Part shown: piece after piece, positions 15,683-25,753 of the stretch
Numbering within the stretch: position 1 is the stretch's first letter
Layout of the letters: every line of letters begins with the position of its first letter
From: Bacteroidia bacterium
Lineage (GTDB): Bacteria > Bacteroidota > Bacteroidia > Flavobacteriales > Flavobacteriaceae
Length of the DNA: 52,124 bases
Assembly (NCBI GenBank): GCA_030429455.1
Contig: JAUIFC010000005.1
Location: forward strand, 1-52,124
Direction of reading: 5' to 3'
Notes under the pieces: model-generated
Database searches by the model: none
Told to the model about the DNA's origin: nothing
Seen by the model: the letters and a program-made list of their open reading frames with translations, nothing else
Translations under genes and position numbers: made by a program

Positions 15683-18148
15683 TTATTCAACTTCCATGGT
15701 GACAGTTTTGCTTATTTCACCTTGTTCCTCATTTAATTTGAAATGGTGTTTTCCATGAACACCTTCTCCTTTCATAGCTTCAATTTTAGCTTCTACTTCA
15801 GAGGCAGTGCCTTTTATGATTTCTTTCTTTTGTTTTTCTTCACCATTCTCCATATAAGTTGTGATGACTGTTGCGGTGGCATTAGGGCCTTCAGATTCGA
15901 TTATTATTTCTTCAGTAATATTTATTTCAGCTTTAGCCATTATTTCATTGCCGTGGTCGCCTAATATTGGAGCAATGACTAAACCAATTAAACATGTCAA
16001 TTTGATTAAGATGTTCATAGAAGGTCCAGAAGTGTCTTTAAATGGATCACCAACAGTATCTCCAGTGACAGCAGCTTGATGAGGAGCTGATGGATTATCT
16101 TCTTTGTGTTTGTAATAGGTCTTTCCATTTATTTCTACACCTGCCTCGAAAGATTTTTTAGCATTATCCCAAGCGCCGCCAGCATTGTTTTGGAAAATAG
16201 CCCACATGACTCCAGACACACATACACCTGCCATGTAACCACCTAAAACTTCGGCACCTAGCGGAAAATCATTATTTACTATAGCAGTTCCAAGACCCAT
16301 AACGACTGGTGTTACAATTGTAATAAGACCAGGAATCACCATTTCTTTTAAGGCTGCTTTTGTGGAAATGTCCACACATTTAGCATATTCGGGTGTTGCT
16401 TTACCTTCCATAATGCCAGGAATTTCTCTAAATTGTCGTCTTACTTCTTCAACCATTTGACCAGCAGCTTTACCTACAGATTCCATCGTTAAAGCAGAAA
16501 AGATCACAGGAATCATTCCACCAATAAATAATGCAGCCAATACAGGCGCTTTAAAAATATTTATACCATCTATACCTGTAAAAGTAACATATGCCGCAAA
16601 TAATGCTAAAGCTGTTAATGCAGCCGATGCAATTGCAAAACCTTTTCCTACGGCAGCCGTTGTATTACCTACAGAATCAAGAATATCAGTTCTTTCTCTT
16701 ACATGTGGTTCCAATTCACTCATTTCGGCAACTCCACCAGCGTTGTCAGCAATTGGTCCAAAGGCGTCAATCGCTAATTGCATTGCTGTCGTGGCCATCA
16801 TTGCGGAAGCGGCTAGTGCTACTCCATAAAATCCAGCTAAAGCGTAAGAACTCCAAATAGCAACAGCAAATAAAATAACAGATAAAAATGTAGATTTCAT
16901 ACCTACCGCCAAACCTGATATGATGTTTGTAGCCGCTCCTGTGGAAGAGTTTCTAACAATGTCCAGAACAGGTTTTTTTCCTAAACTGGTATAGTATGCC
17001 GTAACGATAGAAATCAAGGCACCTACAATCAAACCAATCGTTGCAGTATAAAATACATGTCGAGAAGGGACGGATTTATACCCTTCACCAAAGAACTTCA
17101 TCTCCATCGTTTCTGGTAGCATCCATCGAATTAAAAACCAACTCACTATTAATGTAATAACTATGGAAACCCAATTACCAATATCTAAGGCTCTTTGAAC
17201 TTTAGATTCTTTGGCATCATTTCCTGATACTCTAACTAAAAATGTTCCTATGATAGAAGCTAAAATGCCAACACCTGCGATAACAAGAGGTAATAAAATT
17301 GGTCCCATGTTGTTGAAGCTGTCAGTAAAAGCAGTTCCAGCCTTATCGGCCATGTCTTTAATTACATAATTTCCCAGAACCATTGCAGCCAGAACGGTTG
17401 CTACATAAGATCCAAATAAGTCAGCGCCCATTCCTGCCACATCACCTACATTGTCACCAACGTTGTCTGCTATTGTTGCTGGGTTTCTAGGATCGTCTTC
17501 TGGAATTCCAGCTTCTACTTTTCCAACTAAATCTGCACCAACATCTGCCGCTTTAGTATAAATACCTCCACCAACACGAGCAAATAGTGCAATACATTCA
17601 GCTCCTAAAGAGAAACCAGCTAAGGCTTCAAGAGCAACAGTCATTTCGTCATAAAAGTTACTTTCTCCAGTGACGAACATTTTTAAAAAGATAACAAAAA
17701 ATATGCTCAAACCTAAAACGGCAAGGCCAGCAACGCCAAGTCCCATGACTGTTCCTCCGCCAAAAGATACTTTCAATGCTTTTGGTAAACTGGTTTTAGC
17801 GGCTTCTGCCGTACGTCCATTTGCTTCTGTTGCAATACGCATCCCAATATTTCCAGCTAAGGCAGAAAATATAGCTCCAAATATGAAGGCCACAATGATA
17901 ATGTATGGTGTAGTAGGAACGACATAAGATACGACACCTAATGAAATGGAAGCCAAAACCACGAAACTTAAAAGTAAACGATATTCAGCAGATAGAAAGG
18001 CCAAGGCACCTTCTTTAATAGATTTTGAAATGCTTTGCATTTTTTCGTTACCGGCATCTTGTTTTTTTACCCAAGCCATTTTTACCAGCATAAAAACAAG
18101 GCCTAAGATTGCAAGTCCAATCGGTACATAAATTATATTTTGTTCCAT
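15683..18148 (-). CDS. hppA: Membrane-bound ion-translocating pyrophosphatase
   Basis: An 821-residue, roughly 16-helix membrane enzyme that hydrolyses pyrophosphate to pump H+ or Na+ across the inner membrane. Catalytic signatures include [12 protein letters not shown] (201-212) and [20 protein letters not shown] (217-236). The GNTTAA motif near residue 493 has alanine where potassium-independent enzymes carry lysine, so it should be potassium-dependent. In helix 6 the DLFxS motif has glycine at 246 where Na+ pumps have glutamate; instead a glutamate is at 184 (SLGAEC). A 91-residue hydrophilic, acidic extension (731-821) follows the last helix and is not part of the standard core. The soluble pyrophosphatase gene lies 92 bases upstream on the same strand. 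Confidence 0.95.
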
Positions 18149-18240: not shown

Positions 18241-18750
18241 TTATCCGATTGAGAAGTCAGAATCTTGTGTATCACTCTGTTTAAAGCGTTCTGAGCAACT
18301 GGTGACTATAGCTTGTGCTTGAAAGACATCACCCCAACCTCCAACATCAACTTTTTTCTTTTCCAAATCTTTATAAACTTGGAAAAAGTGTTCGATCTCT
18401 TGTATGAGGTGAGGATTTAGTTCTTTTAAATCGTTGACTTTTGAAGAAATGGGGTCACTTATTGGAACACAAATAATTTTTTCGTCAGGTCCTTTTTCAT
18501 CGGTCATATGAAAAACGCCTATTGGTTTGACTTCCATTACACATCCTGGAAAAGTTGGCTCGGTTACTAAAACGAGCACATCAAGAGGGTCGCCATCCAA
18601 AGCTAATGTTTCAGGGACAAAGCCGTAATCTGCAGGATACATCATTGAAGAAAATATCATTCTGTCATAGCGAATTTTCTTTAATTTGAAATCGTATTCA
18701 TATTTGTTTCTGCTTCCTTTTGGAATTTCAATAAGTACGTCGAAAGTCAT
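18241..18750 (-). CDS. ppa: Soluble inorganic pyrophosphatase, family I
   Basis: A 169-residue family I pyrophosphatase hydrolysing PPi to phosphate in the cytoplasm. The hallmark DGDPLDVLV is at 52-60. Other catalytic segments are KGSRNKYEYD (11-20), YPADYGFVPETL (38-49) and DEKGPDEKIICVP. It precedes the membrane pyrophosphatase gene on the same strand, so the cell encodes both heat-releasing and ion-pumping ways of using PPi side by side. Each gene has its own TAnnTTTG element, which would allow separate control. Confidence 0.96.
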   Translation of the reverse strand: MTFDVLIEIPKGSRNKYEYDFKLKKIRYDRMIFSSMMYPADYGFVPETLALDGDPLDVLVLVTEPTFPGCVMEVKPIGVFHMTDEKGPDEKIICVPISDPISSKVNDLKELNPHLIQEIEHFFQVYKDLEKKKVDVGGWGDVFQAQAIVTSCSERFKQSDTQDSDFSIG

Positions 18751-18811: not shown

Positions 18812-21307
18812 TTAGAAATAAAACCCAAAAGCACCTGTAATTCCAAAATTCCGTGCGTTTGGTACTTCGAAGTAGTTTCCTCTAAAGTGAAAATCGATTC
18901 TAAACACTCTAAAGATATTTCCTACTCCAAAACTATATGAGTAATATATGTTTCTGTTTGGCGCAAATAAAACAGGGTTTGATGTCGATGCATTTAAGAG
19001 TCTGCTTTCGTCGGAGATGTCGCCATATACGCTTCTAAAAGTTACAATTTCTCTTAAGTCAAGATTTCTGAGCAAAGGAATTCTTGAGAAAAATCTACCA
19101 TTAAAATTGTGTTCCAGTTGAAGGCTAACATATTCATCGGTGACAAACTCATAAAAATCAAGAAGTGGAAATGTGCCTTGAATTGTAAATAACGTCTGGT
19201 TTCCTGGAACCACATTTAGCAGTCCTAAAGGGACTGCCCCAAATGTTTTGCCAGCCTCAAAAGTAGAGGTAAATTTTCCAAAACCACCCAACAAAATGGG
19301 TTGCGTGTACAGCAGTTGTAACCTATCATAATTAAAATTGCTGTTGAATAAACCTTCTATTCCTCTTGTGTATTTCAGAAGTACGTCAGGATACGCACCA
19401 GCATTTACTTGATAGCGTTCGACGCCGTAACCTGTTGTTTTTTTATTGGGCGTATAGTTAATGCTAAATGATAGTTCTGACTGATTGGTTTGTTCCTCTA
19501 TTTGGGTTCGAGCTTCATCTGTGTAATATGCTAAGCTGAAGAGATTTGTGTCGGCTCCAATTAAGGTTCTGTAACTGCCTTCCAATCTTACCTTAAAGTT
19601 ATAAAACGGTTCTGCTTCGAGTGCTAAACCACCCAAATTTATATTTGTTAATGTTGTGTTTGCAGCAACGGTAAATGGTGAGTTGGAAACCAAACTACGT
19701 CCCAAAACGTCGTTTGAGCTTGTAAGACTAGCCCCAAGCTGTTCAATATCTCTTCGGTTGCCGCCTGATAGAATTAATCTTGATTTTCGGTCAAGCATTA
19801 CTTTTCCGCCAATGCCATATTTAAACTTATTGTCATTAAAGCCATAGGCTGTAAATCCTTGTATGCGCCAAGTATCGTTTTGCCCAAAATAAGTTCGTCC
19901 ACCAACTCTTAGCCTAATGCCTTCGATATCATTAAATCCAAAGGTAGAAAAAACTGGTCCAAAATCCCAGCCATCAAATTCGTAGTAATTGGTTGCCAAT
20001 ACCGTGGCAACATCGTAAACATTTTTAAATGCTTTAACTGTTTTAAGGGTGTCTACAAGGGTGTAAATTTCTTTTTCATCTTTTTTAAGTTCTTCAAGTC
20101 GATTTTCTGCCCAAAACAAGCTGTCTCTGTCAAAAACCTGATCGCGGTAAGGATTTACTTGACGTTCATAAAATTCCTTATCTTTTTCTTGGTCAAAGGC
20201 GTAATTGTCATATAGTGTAGTCCTTTTTCCATAAACACCACGAGATTCTTCCTTTTTTCTAAATGTAAAATCTGACATGAAGTAGTCTCTTTTCATTAAG
20301 AAAATAGAATCATTTAAAACATCAAACTCTTGTTCGATATACACATCTTTGACCCAGTTGATGTTGGCGCTTTTTGTCATGGCCAATTCAATTTTTTTAA
20401 TTGCCCATGTGGTATCATTTACCCAAAATTCGCCTCTAAAGGTCAGTTCGTTTTTCCGTCTTGGATAATATATAATGTTATAACACCATCTGTTATCAAT
20501 AAATGCCGTGTCGGCTAAAATATAATTGTAATTGTCTATACCTGTGGTCGAAAGTGGGCTAACAAAACTTTTGTCAAAAATCTTGATATAATTGTCATAG
20601 ACATCGTAATCGGAATATAAGTCTTGTATAAATGCAACTAGGCTTTGATTGTTGCTAAAACCTGAATTTTTATTTCCTTTTAAATCTTCTTTCTTTTTGT
20701 TAATCTCATTGTCGCCGTAAACTTTGGAAACGGCTTCGTTTATAAAAATTGGTAAATACGTTTTTCCCGTAACTTCGTTGGTATCTGTTTGCTCAAAAAT
20801 AAACTCCATACCTTTAAAAAGTCTGCTTTTAATAAGACTGCTGTCAATCGTATTTAAATCAAACTGAAGTTTTTCGTACTTGTCATATTGGTATTGTTTA
20901 AATTTCTTGACCCCATTTGCTCTTCTGTTTGCCCATATTTTTCTGAGGATATCAATGGCAGGATTATTTTTTTTCGAGGTTTTTCCAGAAAATACCATGA
21001 CCTCATCTAAAGATTCTGTGTCTGGCGACATTATTATTTTAAGGTCTAAGGAATTTCTTTGATTTAGTTTGAAATCAAGGGTTTTAAAACCTACAAAAGA
21101 GATGATAATGGCCTCATAATCAGCGTTAGATTGGAGGTAAAATTTTCCGTTTTCATCTGAAATCGTTCCAACACTAGAGTTTTTGAAAATAATATTGGCG
21201 AAGGCAACTGGTTCATCAAATTCATCAAAAATATAACCTCCAACTTTAGTTTGAGCAAAAGTCAAGATGGTAAAGAATAAGAAGAAAAGTGTGATGTTAT
21301 TTTTCAT
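18812..21307 (-). CDS. DUF5686 family outer-membrane protein with carboxypeptidase-like regulatory domain
   Basis: An 831-residue exported protein. The signal peptide is MKNNITLFFLFFTILTFAQ, followed by a CarboxypepD_reg-like domain (about 22-95: GGYIFDEFDEPVAFANIIF, GTISDENGKFYLQS) as in TonB-dependent receptors. The remainder matches the DUF5686 layout of Bacteroidota, with a beta-strand-rich C-terminal half ending in an aromatic residue (GAFGFYF), consistent with an outer-membrane barrel. No TonB box/plug domain is recognisable, so it is not a classical TonB-dependent transporter. The function is unknown. It stands 61 bases upstream of ppa on the same strand. Confidence 0.82.
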   Translation of the reverse strand: MKNNITLFFLFFTILTFAQTKVGGYIFDEFDEPVAFANIIFKNSSVGTISDENGKFYLQSNADYEAIIISFVGFKTLDFKLNQRNSLDLKIIMSPDTESLDEVMVFSGKTSKKNNPAIDILRKIWANRRANGVKKFKQYQYDKYEKLQFDLNTIDSSLIKSRLFKGMEFIFEQTDTNEVTGKTYLPIFINEAVSKVYGDNEINKKKEDLKGNKNSGFSNNQSLVAFIQDLYSDYDVYDNYIKIFDKSFVSPLSTTGIDNYNYILADTAFIDNRWCYNIIYYPRRKNELTFRGEFWVNDTTWAIKKIELAMTKSANINWVKDVYIEQEFDVLNDSIFLMKRDYFMSDFTFRKKEESRGVYGKRTTLYDNYAFDQEKDKEFYERQVNPYRDQVFDRDSLFWAENRLEELKKDEKEIYTLVDTLKTVKAFKNVYDVATVLATNYYEFDGWDFGPVFSTFGFNDIEGIRLRVGGRTYFGQNDTWRIQGFTAYGFNDNKFKYGIGGKVMLDRKSRLILSGGNRRDIEQLGASLTSSNDVLGRSLVSNSPFTVAANTTLTNINLGGLALEAEPFYNFKVRLEGSYRTLIGADTNLFSLAYYTDEARTQIEEQTNQSELSFSINYTPNKKTTGYGVERYQVNAGAYPDVLLKYTRGIEGLFNSNFNYDRLQLLYTQPILLGGFGKFTSTFEAGKTFGAVPLGLLNVVPGNQTLFTIQGTFPLLDFYEFVTDEYVSLQLEHNFNGRFFSRIPLLRNLDLREIVTFRSVYGDISDESRLLNASTSNPVLFAPNRNIYYSYSFGVGNIFRVFRIDFHFRGNYFEVPNARNFGITGAFGFYF

Positions 21308-21440
21308 CTGTTTAAAAACTTCGTTGCTTTTAGATTATTATAGCTTGATAAGTAAATTTAACATTGGTGAATTATTTTGTTGAAGTTTAGATCGTTATGA
21401 ATATGAAATTTTGAGATATTTTTAGGCCATGGTCATAAAA

Positions 21441-21469
21441 AAACCTCATTTGAGGATTCAAATGAGGTT
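21441..21469 (-). terminator. Intrinsic terminator downstream of pdhB
   Basis: AACCTCATTTGA (21442-21453) pairs perfectly with TCAAATGAGGTT (21458-21469) around a 4-base loop. Read on the minus strand it is followed by seven T, so it terminates pdhB. Confidence 0.9.
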
Positions 21470-21490
21470 CGCAATCTAATAAATTAATTC

Positions 21491-22468
21491 TTACAAATAC
21501 ATTACTTTTTTAACGGCTTTTATCACATCTTCATGATTAGGTAACCACTCTTTTAATAGAGAAGGTGAGTATGGCGCTGGTGTATCGGCTGTATTTAATT
21601 TGATAATAGGCGCATCAAGAAAATCGAAGGCATGGCGTTGGATATGGTATGTGATTTCTGTTGAAACATTTCCAAATGGCCAAGCTTCTTCAAGACATAT
21701 TAATCTGTTAGTCTTTTTTACTGAGTTTTCTATGCATTCATAATCCAAAGGTCTAACCGTTCTTAGGTCAATAATCTCGCAGGAAATGCCTTCTTTTTCC
21801 AGTAAGTCTGCAGCTTTGTAAGCTTCTTTTATAATTTTTCCAAAAGAAACGATAGTCACGTCTTTACCTTCTCTTTTGATATCCGCTTTTCCAATAGGGA
21901 TGGTATATTCTTCCTCTGGCACTTCGCCTTTGTCGCCATACATTTGTTCACTTTCCATAAAAATAACAGGGTCATCATCTCTAATTGAAGATTTTAATAG
22001 CCCTTTTGCGTCGTATGGATTGGACGGCACAACAACTTTTAGTCCTGGAGTATTGGCGTACCAACTTTCAAAAGCTTGAGAATGCGTAGCACCCAATTGT
22101 CCAGCTGAAGCTGTTGGCCCTCTAAAAACGATAGGAATGTTTATTTGCCCACCAGACATTTGTCTCATTTTGGCAGCATTGTTAATTATTTGGTCTATTC
22201 CAACTAATGAGAAGTTAAAGGTCATAAATTCCACTATTGGTCGATTGCCATTCATGGCAGAACCTACACCTATCCCTGCAAAACCCAGTTCAGATATTGG
22301 TGTATCGATCACCCTATCCGGACCAAATTCATCTAACATTCCTTTTGAAGCCTTGTATGCGCCGTTGTATTCTGCAACCTCTTCACCCATCAGGTAAACA
22401 GACTTGTCGGCTCTCATTTCTTCACTCATTGCTTCACATACGGCCTCCCGAAATTGTATAGTTCTCAT
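21491..22468 (-). CDS. pdhB: Pyruvate dehydrogenase E1 component, beta subunit
   Basis: A 325-residue transketolase-like protein starting MRTIQFREAVCEAMSEEM. With the alpha subunit it performs thiamine-diphosphate-dependent decarboxylation of pyruvate in the pyruvate dehydrogenase complex. Conserved blocks are MGEEVAEYNGAYKASKGMLDEFG (the E of GEEV assists thiamine activation), DTPISELGFAGIGVGSAMNG, EFMTFNFSLVGIDQIINNAAK and the C-terminal DLRTVRPLDYECI...EEAWPFGNVSTEI. The alpha and E2/E3 genes are not nearby. A branched-chain oxoacid E1 beta is the main alternative, but motifs fit PDH better. The gene is monocistronic. Confidence 0.93.
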   Translation of the reverse strand: MRTIQFREAVCEAMSEEMRADKSVYLMGEEVAEYNGAYKASKGMLDEFGPDRVIDTPISELGFAGIGVGSAMNGNRPIVEFMTFNFSLVGIDQIINNAAKMRQMSGGQINIPIVFRGPTASAGQLGATHSQAFESWYANTPGLKVVVPSNPYDAKGLLKSSIRDDDPVIFMESEQMYGDKGEVPEEEYTIPIGKADIKREGKDVTIVSFGKIIKEAYKAADLLEKEGISCEIIDLRTVRPLDYECIENSVKKTNRLICLEEAWPFGNVSTEITYHIQRHAFDFLDAPIIKLNTADTPAPYSPSLLKEWLPNHEDVIKAVKKVMYL

Positions 22469-22497
22469 ATTGATATTTAGTAGTTACTAATATGTCG

Positions 22498-22505
22498 CAA
22501 AACTA
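22498..22505 (-). promoter_or_regulatory. pdhB -7 promoter element (TAGTTTTG)
   Basis: The minus strand reads TAGTTTTG, matching TAnnTTTG, 29 bases before the pdhB ATG. Confidence 0.5.
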
Positions 22506-22650
22506 ATAAAATTATCTATTATTTTTTATTTTTAATTTAATAAAACTAAACTAGAAATTTTAACCCCTTAAATAAGAATACTTAAATCTATTTTTCCCTA
22601 AGATATATTCAATTTTAGAAGATTTTAGTCTTTATTATACTATGATCTTA

Positions 22651-23247
22651 TTAGTGATGGTGCTTCTTGCCATGGTTATCCCAAAATTTTTTTACTTCTT
22701 TATGATTCTTGAAGGCTAATTTTAACAATTGTTCATTACTAGAATTTTTTAGGGCAATTTTATCTAAACCTTTTTGAATCAAGGAATCTTTTAGCTTGTT
22801 TGTATAATACAATTTAAGGTCGTGATGACTGTCATCTATAAAAAATAGCTTTAGAATATATGGGTGATTAATACCTATTTTCTTTCCTATTAAAATAAGA
22901 TCTTTTTCATTAATATATAGATATTTAGAAAGTCTATTCCAGCTATAATTTATTCTGTGGTAAGCATTGTTGGCTAATTTCCAATCATCAAATTTGTAGT
23001 ATAAGTAAACACCTAAAGAATCTCTTTTAGAAAAAGTTTTTTTGTTTTTGAAAAGTTGTTCGTTGGCTACAATACAATTAAAATCTTCTTTTGAAATCTT
23101 AATCAAATCTTGATTAGAGTTTAGATTATACAAGCAAAGTGTTGAAAAAATTAAACTATCTCTTTTCTTGAGTTTAATATCTTTAATTTCAATTGATTGA
23201 CAATAAAACTGAAAAGGAATAACAAGAAAAAAAATTTTTAATAACAT
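22651..23247 (-). CDS. Exported protein of unknown function with His-rich C-terminus
   Basis: I do not recognise this 198-residue protein. It begins [21 protein letters not shown], a signal peptide probably cleaved near residue 18. The mature part is lysine-, asparagine- and aromatic-rich and ends HGKKHHH, with HH also in DDSHHDLKLY, which could bind metal. The ATG at 23245-23247 shares its first base with the last base of the upstream TAA stop, so translation should be coupled to the ferredoxin-like lipoprotein. A longer reading (20 more codons) would run inside that gene without a signal-like start and is rejected. The gene is very AT-rich. No terminator was seen after it. Confidence 0.7.
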   Translation of the reverse strand: MLLKIFFLVIPFQFYCQSIEIKDIKLKKRDSLIFSTLCLYNLNSNQDLIKISKEDFNCIVANEQLFKNKKTFSKRDSLGVYLYYKFDDWKLANNAYHRINYSWNRLSKYLYINEKDLILIGKKIGINHPYILKLFFIDDSHHDLKLYYTNKLKDSLIQKGLDKIALKNSSNEQLLKLAFKNHKEVKKFWDNHGKKHHH

Positions 23248-23795
23248 TATAAATTCTCTTCTTGATGAGTTAATATTACACTGTTCGCAAGTGGATATGC
23301 AACGCAAAGCAAAATAAAGCCATCATCCAGTTGGTCATCGTCTAAAAATGCATTTTCGCTTTGATCGATAACACCATGTATAAGTTTTGCAGCACAAGTA
23401 GACGATAAGCCTGCTCTATCTGAAAACGGCAATTCTATACCTAGTTCTTCTGCTCTATCTAGAATCGGATAATTATCTGGGCAAGAAAACGTTTCGTCTA
23501 TACCTTCATTATAATTATAAACATTTACTTGAAAGTAATCTATGTTTTTTGGAAATACCTTTTTTGATAACTCTGATTTTCTAATATTTGCTAAATCTAA
23601 ATAGCTTTGAAGACTAGAATATTTATTAATAATACCATCTTTGGATGTTTGACTAAAAGAGTTTTTCATGTTAAATTCAATTTCTAAATCTTCCCATGTT
23701 ATTGATTTTTCGAATTCATCATTAAAAGAGTTTTCGTTACAACCAAGAAATAAAGAAATAAGCAATAAGCCTAAAAAATAAAATTTTGTTTTCAT
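23247..23795 (-). CDS. Lipoprotein with degenerate plant-type [2Fe-2S] ferredoxin domain
   Basis: A 182-residue protein. The signal [19 protein letters not shown] has a lipobox ending at C19, so the mature protein is a lipoprotein. Residues about 101-182 align by eye with plant-type ferredoxins: [73 protein letters not shown]. In the canonical loop CRAGSCSSC...C the four cluster ligands are cysteines; here they read D126, S131, C134 and C164. Two ligands are lost while the surrounding fold is kept, so a normal [2Fe-2S] cluster is unlikely. Residues 20-100 are unrecognised. Expression is driven from a promoter abutting an AATTTTT repeat, and the downstream gene overlaps by one base. Confidence 0.8.
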
Positions 23796-23815
23796 GATGT
23801 TTATTTAAATTTCAT

Positions 23816-23823
23816 CAAATTTA
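23816..23823 (-). promoter_or_regulatory. -7 promoter element (TAAATTTG) of the ferredoxin-like lipoprotein operon
   Basis: The minus strand reads TAAATTTG, an exact TAnnTTTG match, 20 bases before the ATG. Its upstream edge touches the AATTTTT tandem array. Confidence 0.55.
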
Positions 23824-23866
23824 ATTTTTAATTTTTAATTTTTAATTTTTAATTTTTAATTTTTAA
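23823..23866. repeat. Tandem repeat (AATTTTT), six perfect copies plus AA
   Basis: Six uninterrupted 7-bp units run from 23823 to 23864, followed by AA. The array lies between two divergent operons and occupies the place where the -33 element of the lipoprotein promoter would be. Perfect short repeats of this kind are prone to slippage. Confidence 0.95.
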
Positions 23867-23918
23867 CAAAAACTCCATATTTTTATTATGCATGCATAGT
23901 AAATCAAAGATAAAGTAT

Positions 23919-23926
23919 TATCTTCG
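23919..23926 (+). promoter_or_regulatory. Probable etfB -7 element (TATCTTCG)
   Basis: TATCTTCG differs from TAnnTTTG by one base and lies 28 bases before the etfB ATG. Confidence 0.4.
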
Positions 23927-23954
23927 CAAACGATTTATTTAAAACAAAAATACA

Positions 23955-24701
23955 ATGAAAATATTAGTCTGTATAAGTAATGTTCCAGACACAACTTCTA
24001 AGATAAATTTTGTTGAAAATGATACAAAGTTTGATACGAACAGTGTTCAATTTATCATCAATCCAAATGACGAATTTGGTTTAACCCGAGCGATGTGGTT
24101 CAAGGAAAAGCAAGGCGCATCGGTAGATATTATCACTGTTGGGCAGAAAGATGTGGAACCTACAATGCGGAAGTGTTTGGCAATTGGTGCAGATAGAGCC
24201 ATAAGAGTGGATGCAGAACCTAGAGATGCATTTCAGGTTGCCAAGGAAATTGCAAATGTCGCCCAAGAAAAGGGATATGATTTGATCATTGCCGGAAGAG
24301 AGTCTATAGATTACAATGGAGGCATCGTACCTGGCATGGTAGCTAAATATTTAGGTGCACAATTTGTAAATACTTGTGTCTCACTTGAGATTGAAGGTTC
24401 CAATGCAACTGCTGTTAGGGAGATAGATGGCGGAAAAGAAACCTTGTCCTGCTCACTTCCACTTGTTGTTGGTGGCCAAAAAGGCCTTGTTGAAGAAAAA
24501 GATTTACGTATTCCAAACATGAGAGGAATTATGATGGCTAGAAAGAAGCCTCTGGAAGTTAAACCACCAACGGTTGAAGACATTCAAGTTGAATTTTCTA
24601 GTTTTAGCAAACCAGCTCCTAAAGGAGATGTTAAACTCGTAGACCCAGAAAACATAGATCAGTTGATCGAATTACTACATAACGAAGCAAAAGCAATTTA
24701 A
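23955..24701 (+). CDS. etfB: Electron transfer flavoprotein beta subunit
   Basis: A 248-residue ETF beta subunit starting MKILVCISNVPDTTSKINF. The AMP-binding/nucleotide fold blocks are present: INPNDEFGLTRAMWFKEKQGA, MRKCLAIGADRAIRVDAEP, LIIAGRESIDYNGGIVPGMVAKYLG, and the RIPNMRGIMMARKKPLEV segment that interacts with partner dehydrogenases. With EtfA it takes electrons from acyl-CoA and related dehydrogenases and passes them to the quinone pool via ETF dehydrogenase. It begins the etfBA operon; etfA follows after 18 bases. Confidence 0.95.
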   Translation: MKILVCISNVPDTTSKINFVENDTKFDTNSVQFIINPNDEFGLTRAMWFKEKQGASVDIITVGQKDVEPTMRKCLAIGADRAIRVDAEPRDAFQVAKEIANVAQEKGYDLIIAGRESIDYNGGIVPGMVAKYLGAQFVNTCVSLEIEGSNATAVREIDGGKETLSCSLPLVVGGQKGLVEEKDLRIPNMRGIMMARKKPLEVKPPTVEDIQVEFSSFSKPAPKGDVKLVDPENIDQLIELLHNEAKAI

Positions 24702-24719
24702 TTTAAACATAAAAATACC

Positions 24720-25682
24720 ATGTCCATACTTATATATGCAGAATCCGAAAATGGAAAGTTGAAGAAGACCTCATATGAACTTGCGTCTTATGCCTACAAA
24801 ATTGCTCAAAATACACAGGATCAGGTTGTTGCAGTGGCTGTCAACGCTCAAAACCTTGATTCATTAGGTCAATATGGCGTTAGTAAAGTTGTAAGTGTTA
24901 CTTCAGAAGAGTTATCTACTTTCAATTCAGAAACTTATTCAGAAGTTTTAACCTTAGTTGCACAGCAAGAAAACGCAAACTTGGTTATCATAAGTCAAAG
25001 CGCCAATGCTAAATACTTAGCACCTTTGTTGGCCGTGAACCTTGAAGCGGGTTACGCTTCTAATGTTGTTGCATTACCAGAATTAGAAGGTGGTTTTACT
25101 GTTAAGCGTTCAGTGTTTACAAACAAAGCTTTTGGCAAAGCAGAAATCAAAACAGATACTAAAATTGTAGGCTTGTCTAACAACGCCTATGGACTTCATG
25201 AAAATCAAGTGTCCTGTGTCGTCGAAGATTTTAATCCGTCAATATCCCAAAGTGGAATTGCTGTTCAGTCTGTTGATAAGAATACAGACAAAGTAAGTAT
25301 TGCAGATGCAGAAGTGGTTGTTTCAGGAGGTAGAGGTTTAAAAGGACCCGAAAATTGGCATCTTATCGAAGATTTGGCGGATGTATTAGGTGCGGCAACA
25401 GCTTGTTCAAAACCAGTGAGTGATATGGGGTGGCGTTCTCATGGAGAGCATGTTGGGCAAACAGGAAAGCCAGTTGCTTCCAACCTCTATATTGCAATCG
25501 GTATTTCTGGAGCTATTCAACACCTTGCTGGAATCAACTCTTCCAAAACTAAAGTGGTTATTAATACAGACTCAGAAGCGCCTTTTTTCAAAGCAGCAGA
25601 TTACGGCATTGTAGGCGATGCTTTTGAAGTTGTTCCTCAATTAATAGAAAAATTAAAAGAATTTAAGGCGAGTAACGCTTAA
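24720..25682 (+). CDS. etfA: Electron transfer flavoprotein alpha subunit
   Basis: A 320-residue FAD-binding subunit. The N-terminal half is the nucleotide-like fold. The C-terminal FAD domain contains VVSGGRGLKGPENWHLIEDLA, ATACSKPVSDMGWRSHGEHVGQTGKPV, YIAIGISGAIQHLAGI and SEAPFFKAADYGIVGD, all typical FAD contacts. It pairs with EtfB and shares its operon. The gene is followed by a hairpin that ends the transcript. Confidence 0.95.
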   Translation: MSILIYAESENGKLKKTSYELASYAYKIAQNTQDQVVAVAVNAQNLDSLGQYGVSKVVSVTSEELSTFNSETYSEVLTLVAQQENANLVIISQSANAKYLAPLLAVNLEAGYASNVVALPELEGGFTVKRSVFTNKAFGKAEIKTDTKIVGLSNNAYGLHENQVSCVVEDFNPSISQSGIAVQSVDKNTDKVSIADAEVVVSGGRGLKGPENWHLIEDLADVLGAATACSKPVSDMGWRSHGEHVGQTGKPVASNLYIAIGISGAIQHLAGINSSKTKVVINTDSEAPFFKAADYGIVGDAFEVVPQLIEKLKEFKASNA

Positions 25683-25705
25683 TTTTTTTATTTTTACTAA
25701 AATAG

Positions 25706-25753
25706 CGGTCTAAAAATAATTTGAGCATTCTCGTTATTTTTAGACCGTTTTTT
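25706..25753 (+). terminator. Intrinsic terminator of etfBA
   Basis: CGGTCTAAAAATAA (25706-25719) pairs perfectly with TTATTTTTAGACCG (25734-25747) and is followed by six T. The loop is 14 bases. Confidence 0.85.

Follow-up and report, generated by a model that had tools for sequence, protein, structure and literature searches.

The question raised by this locus is whether a plant-type ferredoxin domain carried outside the cytoplasm by a predicted lipoprotein, with two of its four cluster ligands replaced, still holds a metal or is kept for another use. The window, i.e., the whole stretch of 52,124 nucleotides analysed here, comes from a member of the Flavobacteriaceae and encodes this lipoprotein together with a downstream partner gene (Table 1). 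The reading given slightly better than an even chance is that the C-terminal ferredoxin domain has lost its [2Fe-2S] cluster and serves as an acidic binding module, maintained for its shape and pinned by a Cys134-Cys164 disulfide.

Table 1. Positions of the two genes and of the parts of the lipoprotein in the window
Feature	Position	Strand	Remarks
Ferredoxin-domain lipoprotein gene	23247..23795	minus	ATG at 23795, stop 23247-23249, 182 aa
Lipoprotein-type leader and lipobox cysteine, residues 1-19	23739..23795	minus	no twin arginine; by eye
Short N-terminal region, residues 20-86	23538..23738	minus	alignment with relatives
Plant-type ferredoxin (Fer2) domain, residues 88-182	23250..23534	minus	profile and PDB matches
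Asp126 codon GAT	23418..23420	minus	position of Fe1 ligand Cys41
Ser131 codon TCG	23403..23405	minus	position of Fe1 ligand Cys46
Cys134 codon TGT	23394..23396	minus	position of Fe2 ligand Cys49
Cys164 codon TGC	23304..23306	minus	position of Fe2 ligand Cys79
Partner gene	22651..23247	minus	198-residue protein, signal-peptide-like start (by eye), His-rich tail KKHHH

The lipoprotein and its ferredoxin domain

Residues 88-182 match the TIGR02008 profile with an E value of 3.3e-32 and 110.1 bits against a curated cut-off of 81.15, covering positions 3-96 of the 97 in the profile, and the lipoprotein matches Pfam Fer2 at 7.1e-11. Distinct PDB sequences matching at E 1e-3 or better number 54, with 1rfk at the top (3.8e-30). 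Judging from these alignments, the similarity of the domain to plant-type ferredoxins is far above the chance level. The DQS...FLDDDQ and VAYP blocks of these proteins, pointed out in the first-pass annotation, are present. The ligand positions are spaced canonically, 126-131-134-164 being equal to 41-46-49-79 plus 85, and the residues there are D, S, C and C instead of the four-cysteine signature C-X4-C-X2-C-X29-C of TIGR02008 ferredoxins. Alignment and the codons in Table 1 agree with the annotation in placing Asp126, Ser131, Cys134 and Cys164 at these positions. The homologue search with ligand alignment that it had proposed as a check found D and S at the equivalent positions in three other genomes (G026, G1417 and G1497). 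A sequencing error behind D and S is therefore very unlikely and was rejected as an explanation; replacement of Cys by Asp requires two base changes.

The gene product is predicted from its leader to be an exported lipoprotein. With the lipobox-like cysteine at residue 19 (LFLG-C19, by eye) and the profile score given above, the earlier description of a lipoprotein ending in a plant-type ferredoxin stands. Positions +2 to +6 after this cysteine read NENSF, with acidic residues mostly beyond, and SSEEG in the protein of genome G768. The surface export signal of lipoproteins at these positions is QKDDE in C. canimorsus and SDDFE in F. johnsoniae, according to the passages cited from PMC5080379. 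A Pfam scan of the 182-aa lipoprotein found no domain besides Fer2, toxin or catalytic domains included. The AlphaFold model of the lipoprotein (43-row alignment) is of very low confidence, with a mean pLDDT of 36.5; its order of helices and strands resembles a ferredoxin and carries no weight. Just upstream of the gene, at 23824-23867, the 7-base unit ATTTTTA is repeated in tandem about six times (by eye).

Residues 20-86 can be aligned with the lipoproteins of G026, G1417, G1497 (open part) and both copies in G095. The N-terminal region of the G768 protein differs from that of the window lipoprotein, and its ferredoxin domain stands behind about 250 residues without a Pfam match. The partner gene, on which the first-pass annotation is silent, is the next one downstream at all eight ferredoxin-domain loci, with gaps of -1 to 24 bp; in the window, the last base of the lipoprotein stop is also the first of the partner ATG (TAATG). 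Since the N-terminal region is different in G768, the constant unit, as far as these sequences indicate, consists of the partner gene and the ferredoxin domain at the C-terminus of the lipoprotein.

Related loci, distribution and origin

All eight ferredoxin-domain loci were found within one bacterial family. The ligand set is D-S-C-C in the window, G026, G1417 and G1497, D-I-C-C in T. aiptasiae, C-D-D-S in copy 1 of G095, and C-C-C-C in copy 2 of G095 and in G768. Two of the five D-(S/I)-C-C copies are broken, which suggests that the gene is dispensable in places. In G1497, the frame is interrupted near the lipobox, and the gene upstream is one that we take to be an IS66-type transposase. The T. 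aiptasiae copy lacks the leader and the N-terminal part.

The lipoprotein-partner pair is rare and patchy within the sampled genomes, the samples used for the following counts being overlapping ones. In the genus of the window genome, 25 of 27 genomes match the lipoprotein query at 1e-8; besides the window genome, only G026 matches over most of the lipoprotein (residues 15-181), and the partner is found in the same two genomes. The remaining matches listed for the genus, including those in G026 and the window genome, cover the ferredoxin region only, starting from residue 79 or later in frames of 186-391 aa, and are taken for other ferredoxin-domain proteins. In the family sample, the lipoprotein was found in 2 of 397 genomes at E 1e-15 (the window genome and G095, with two copies). 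In Tenacibaculum, the genus of G700 and of T. aiptasiae (G1483), the lipoprotein profile is matched at 1e-18 by 5 of 166 genomes. Three of these (G1417, G1497 and G1483) carry the lipoprotein family, and the matches in G1400 and G1516 are weak and lie inside 344-aa frames. A score above the TIGR02008 cut-off was reached in 1 of 395 genomes of the phylum sample (the window genome). Of the 249 genomes sampled in another genus, 243 match at 1e-15, and G768 is the single one among them to exceed the cut-off. The partner profile found members in 3 of 395 genomes of the order sample, 5 of 146 in Tenacibaculum and 2 of 189 in a second family sample. Scanning public genome contigs with the lipoprotein returned the T. 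aiptasiae locus and a Bacteroides contig; the latter, with a match limited to residues 1-33, was set aside.

Genomic locations vary among the loci. Genes that we take to be mutS adjoin the G1417 and G1497 copies, a presumed hemH lies by copy 1 of G095, and a presumed yebC lies near the T. aiptasiae copy. The pair in the window is flanked by what are presumably pyruvate dehydrogenase E1 beta (21491-22468) and electron-transfer flavoprotein subunits (23955-25682); elsewhere in the window, genes assumed to encode a membrane pyrophosphatase-like (15683-18148) and a soluble pyrophosphatase-like protein (18241-18750) stand side by side. The gene pair is A+T-rich, with 21-31% G+C in the 500-base windows at 22500-23999 and 35-42% in the flanking genes (21500-22499 and 24000-25749). 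The low G+C is not peculiar to the pair, the nearby stretch 20500-21499 being at 29-33%. In G768, the pair adjoins a peroxidase gene, the product of which is a di-haem peroxidase by Pfam scan (CCP_MauG, 2.4e-55). By eye, this gene is intact, and a second copy of its 3' part lies on the far side of the pair (L048:2100-5934), a layout suggestive of an insertion accompanied by partial duplication. Upstream of the lipoprotein start in G026 is a stretch (L049:1080) that recurs about 4.7 kb away (5809), with a near-identical translation, before another small secreted-protein gene.

In the sets searched, the nearest kin of the domain outside its bacterial family are ferredoxins of cyanobacteria, cyanophages and viral contigs, which makes it likely that the domain was captured from a phototroph. 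The PDB search also matched chloroplast ferredoxins, which are not among the rows of the domain tree. The domain is also matched by ferredoxins encoded on cyanobacterial plasmids; as to a virus or plasmid origin of the gene pair, none of the records in the phage and plasmid collections reached 80% query coverage.

The order in which the ligand sets arose depends on the tree considered, and long branches weaken all inferences from the lipoprotein and partner trees. The five D-(S/I)-C-C domains group together (90/83) when the ligand columns are part of the alignment, a result that is partly circular. Without the four columns the domain tree gives no resolution, and a single D-(S/I)-C-C clade is neither supported nor rejected (p-AU 0.153). 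For the joined lipoprotein and partner rows of the eight loci, a clade of exactly the five D-(S/I)-C-C copies is rejected (p-AU 0.008); the C-D-D-S copy of G095 stands inside the other four such copies (97/94), and the window copy stands outside. In the partner tree, the window partner groups with the two partners of C-C-C-C domains (88/90), which themselves stand together (88/86). Rooted on the C-C-C-C pair, these sequences are compatible with one possible switch to non-canonical ligands followed by a further change in copy 1 of G095; separate origins of the non-canonical sets are also possible.

Fate of the metal site

Pairwise identity among the five D-(S/I)-C-C copies is 39-52% in the ferredoxin domain. 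All five have a residue at 61 columns, of which 15 are invariant, including D126, C134 and C164; S131 is present in four of the five. The 13 reference rows (8 viral, 3 from cyanobacterial plasmids and 2 flavobacterial, copy 1 of G095 being left out) have cysteine in 13, 12, 13 and 13 rows at the four ligand columns. The viral rows were drawn from 14 rows of the domain tree, which were themselves chosen from 80 loci and L034. In the 35 near-universal columns listed, only 126 and 131 have switched to one new residue in all four D-S-C-C rows. Fourfold sites of the five lipoprotein genes agree in 67 of 156 pooled pairwise comparisons, i.e., 0.43 vs 0.38 at saturation, and those of the partner genes in 27 of 97 (0.28 vs 0.36). 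A neutral simulation on a star tree, which overstates the independence of lineages, gave probabilities of 0.03, 0.0025 and 7e-5 for Asp being kept in all five lineages at 0.3, 0.5 and 1.0 substitutions per site and lineage, respectively. Since Asp126, Cys134 and Cys164 are invariant although the silent sites are near saturation, drift alone is a poor explanation for their retention. The same swap in related bacteria suggests that the replacement, common to these relatives, is most likely under selection. The Ser131 codons are TCN in the window and G1417 and AGT in G026 and G1497; Ser may thus have arisen more than once, or its codon may have switched. A ferredoxin-like gene of a Nostoc plasmid (L173:289-591) reads C,Y,C,C, its tyrosine at the second ligand position being another natural loss of an Fe1 ligand.

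These data bear on the view that the domain is a drifting relic of a ferredoxin captured from a phototroph. Its sparse distribution, the low G+C, the two broken copies and the C-D-D-S paralogue would agree with decay. However, the frames are open in the window, G026 and G1417, 28 of 98 columns are invariant across four copies that are 39-52% identical and near-saturated at silent sites, and the partner gene accompanies all eight copies. Decay thus retains a small probability, and the relatives back the argument made against it in the first-pass annotation, even with two of five copies broken.

The replaced and kept ligands form two distinct pairs. For Anabaena ferredoxin, the passages cited from PMC8538827 assign Cys41 and Cys46 to Fe1, which undergoes reduction, and Cys49 and Cys79 to Fe2. 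Mapped onto these positions, the replaced pair in the window lipoprotein is that of Fe1 and the kept pair is that of Fe2. This asymmetry could mean either an oxygen-ligated Fe1 or two cysteines near enough for a disulfide, and the latter fits the location of the protein better.

The first of these options is a mixed-ligand, asymmetric [2Fe-2S] cluster with Asp126 and Ser131 on Fe1, Cys134 and Cys164 on Fe2 and thus one oxygen-ligated iron. Both Asp and Ser are possible oxygen ligands. The exact correspondence of the replaced and kept residues with the two iron sites would be expected of such a cluster, as would the conservation among the five D-(S/I)-C-C copies, all of which have Asp and four of which have Ser. 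Asymmetric ligation of [2Fe-2S] clusters occurs in Rieske (Cys2/His2) and mitoNEET (Cys3/His1) proteins, as the cited parts of PMC9737848 describe, and iron is ligated by Asp in the ferredoxin of Pyrococcus furiosus, isolated as [3Fe-4S] or [4Fe-4S] (cited part of PMC6237146). The mixed cluster is rather unlikely all the same: the leaders have no twin-arginine signal, which makes cluster insertion before export improbable; T. aiptasiae has Ile at the second position, albeit in the copy without the N-terminal part; and no natural D,S,C,C [2Fe-2S] protein was found among the open-access literature matches listed (one set being the best 10 of 371).

The location argument rests on the export route. 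Sec exports proteins unfolded, without a cluster, and Tat takes leaders with twin arginines. None of the six readable leaders (P0001, P0003, P0005, P0007, P0011 and P0015) has a twin-arginine motif; export of a cytoplasm-built cluster is therefore unlikely. In the favoured cluster-less reading, the lipoprotein would be anchored in the membrane after export by a leader of the Sec type and, passing through Sec unfolded, would receive no cluster built in the cytoplasm. A Cys134-Cys164 disulfide formed in the oxidising envelope may replace the cluster as the core pin, and Asp126 and Ser131 might fill the old Fe1 loop through hydrogen bonding. The domain would then use the recognition face that it retains from ferredoxins to bind either the protein of the partner gene or a ligand from outside. 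The C-D-D-S set in copy 1 of G095, in which three of the four ligands are lost, fits a domain no longer needing a cluster. On the other hand, copy 2 of G095 and G768 keep four cysteines behind similar leaders, so that a cluster may occur in the envelope, and Asp126 is more conserved than a mere filler would need. The first-pass annotation had left the choice between a lost cluster with reuse of the fold and a mixed-ligand cluster; the Sec-type leaders and the C-D-D-S paralogue lean towards the former.

If the domain is cluster-less, one of the best-studied metalloprotein folds has moved outside the cytoplasm and been retained for its shape. A single family then contains the site intact, half replaced and mostly replaced, which makes the order of events in metal-site loss testable. 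If it is metal-bound, it offers a natural D,S,C,C site.

A shape kept as bait or decoy was also considered, the domain engaging a ferredoxin receptor or reductase. Positions 47, 65 and 94 of ordinary ferredoxins, which we assume to be important in reductase recognition, are Ser132, Phe150 and Glu179 here and are invariant in the four D-S-C-C rows. The domain is acidic, with 19 D+E vs 3 K+R in residues 86-182. The model for such use is provided by the pectocins, which enter through FusA; pectocin M1 does so using its ferredoxin domain, as reported in the cited part of PMC11452297. Against this, the Pfam scan found Fer2 with no toxin domain, and the residues at 132 and 150 are Ala and Tyr in T. 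aiptasiae. The bait or decoy role is accordingly given very little chance.

The partner family and comparison with known systems

The window partner has no Pfam or NCBIfam match above the cut-off and no PADLOC or PHROGs match. For the family, no match above the cut-off was obtained in Pfam (12 partners) or NCBIfam (5 partners) and none in PHROGs (3 partners); PADLOC gave one weak match (E 0.006) in one of five partners. The AlphaFold model of the window partner, based on a 2-row alignment, is of very low confidence (mean pLDDT 33.9). Its relatives are not tied to ferredoxin domains, since in G026 a member of the family follows a carbonic anhydrase lipoprotein gene (L185:2956-4399; Pro_CA 4.1e-40). 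Partner genes without a ferredoxin lie at L089:6389-7036, L089:12993-13634 and L047:4397-4906. In G1370, one follows a gene for a secreted protein with a type IX sorting tail (Por_Secre_tail 7.4e-11). By eye, the partner in G1370 and G700 sits between a lipoprotein-like gene and a gene resembling that of the G768 CCP_MauG protein, a setting that we take to be a SusC/SusD-like cluster; the G700 copy has two internal stops. A family whose members adjoin ferredoxin domains, a carbonic anhydrase gene and a gene like that of the di-haem peroxidase offers a starting point for finding a new function in the envelope.

The tails of the partners follow the ligand sets: all five partners adjoining D-(S/I)-C-C domains have His-rich tails, and both partners adjoining C-C-C-C domains end in CGxExCCQ. 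In sequence terms, this correspondence hints at a metal link. It could mean that the D,S,C,C pocket holds a single zinc, iron or copper ion acquired outside the cytoplasm, possibly via the His-tailed partner. The neighbourhood of family members with the carbonic anhydrase lipoprotein in G026 and with the peroxidase-like genes in G1370 and G700 (by eye) would suit this view. However, both G1370 partners are His-tailed without a ferredoxin neighbour, and the two Cys-tailed partners group in the tree, so that ancestry may explain the tails; the partner of the C-D-D-S copy has neither of the two. A single-metal site is therefore considered unlikely.

A broader proposal combines these elements: a selected extracytoplasmic ferredoxin fold would have an asymmetric O/S metal site, with Asp and Ser at Fe1 and two Cys at Fe2, filled outside the cytoplasm with the help of a His- or Cys-tailed companion that also serves other exported metalloproteins. 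This proposal is held to be fairly improbable; if true, it would mean a metal-loading or metalloprotein-care system of the Bacteroidota envelope that has gone unrecognised.

Among the matches listed from the open-access literature (9 in one set), with subscription papers mostly outside this scope, no description of a plant-type ferredoxin lipoprotein in Bacteroidetes was found. The folds of Rieske and mitoNEET proteins differ from the plant-type ferredoxin fold, and their non-cysteine ligands are histidines. These ligands bind one iron only, as described in the cited part of PMC9737848; a mixed-ligand site in the present domain would resemble them in this respect. P450-linked bacterial ferredoxins with the CXX?XXC motif also have a natural non-cysteine ligand position, serine included; unlike the window protein, they contain a [3Fe-4S] cluster, another cluster motif and one replaced position (cited part of PMC6237146). 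Pectocins M1 and M2 likewise reuse a plant-type ferredoxin domain outside electron transfer, and 8jc1 and 4n58 matched the lipoprotein. In pectocin M1, the ferredoxin stands at the N-terminus and a catalytic domain at the C-terminus, according to the cited part of PMC11452297, whereas here the ferredoxin is C-terminal on a lipoprotein in which the Pfam scan found no pectocin-type catalytic domain. The closest comparison is with the plant-type [2Fe-2S] ferredoxins (TIGR02008) of cyanobacteria and chloroplasts, with which the domain shares its length, the ligand spacing, the DQS...FLDDDQ and VAYP blocks and the C-terminal THQEENL; it differs from them in the Asp and Ser at two ligand positions, in the fused lipoprotein leader and N-terminal region, and in the partner gene.
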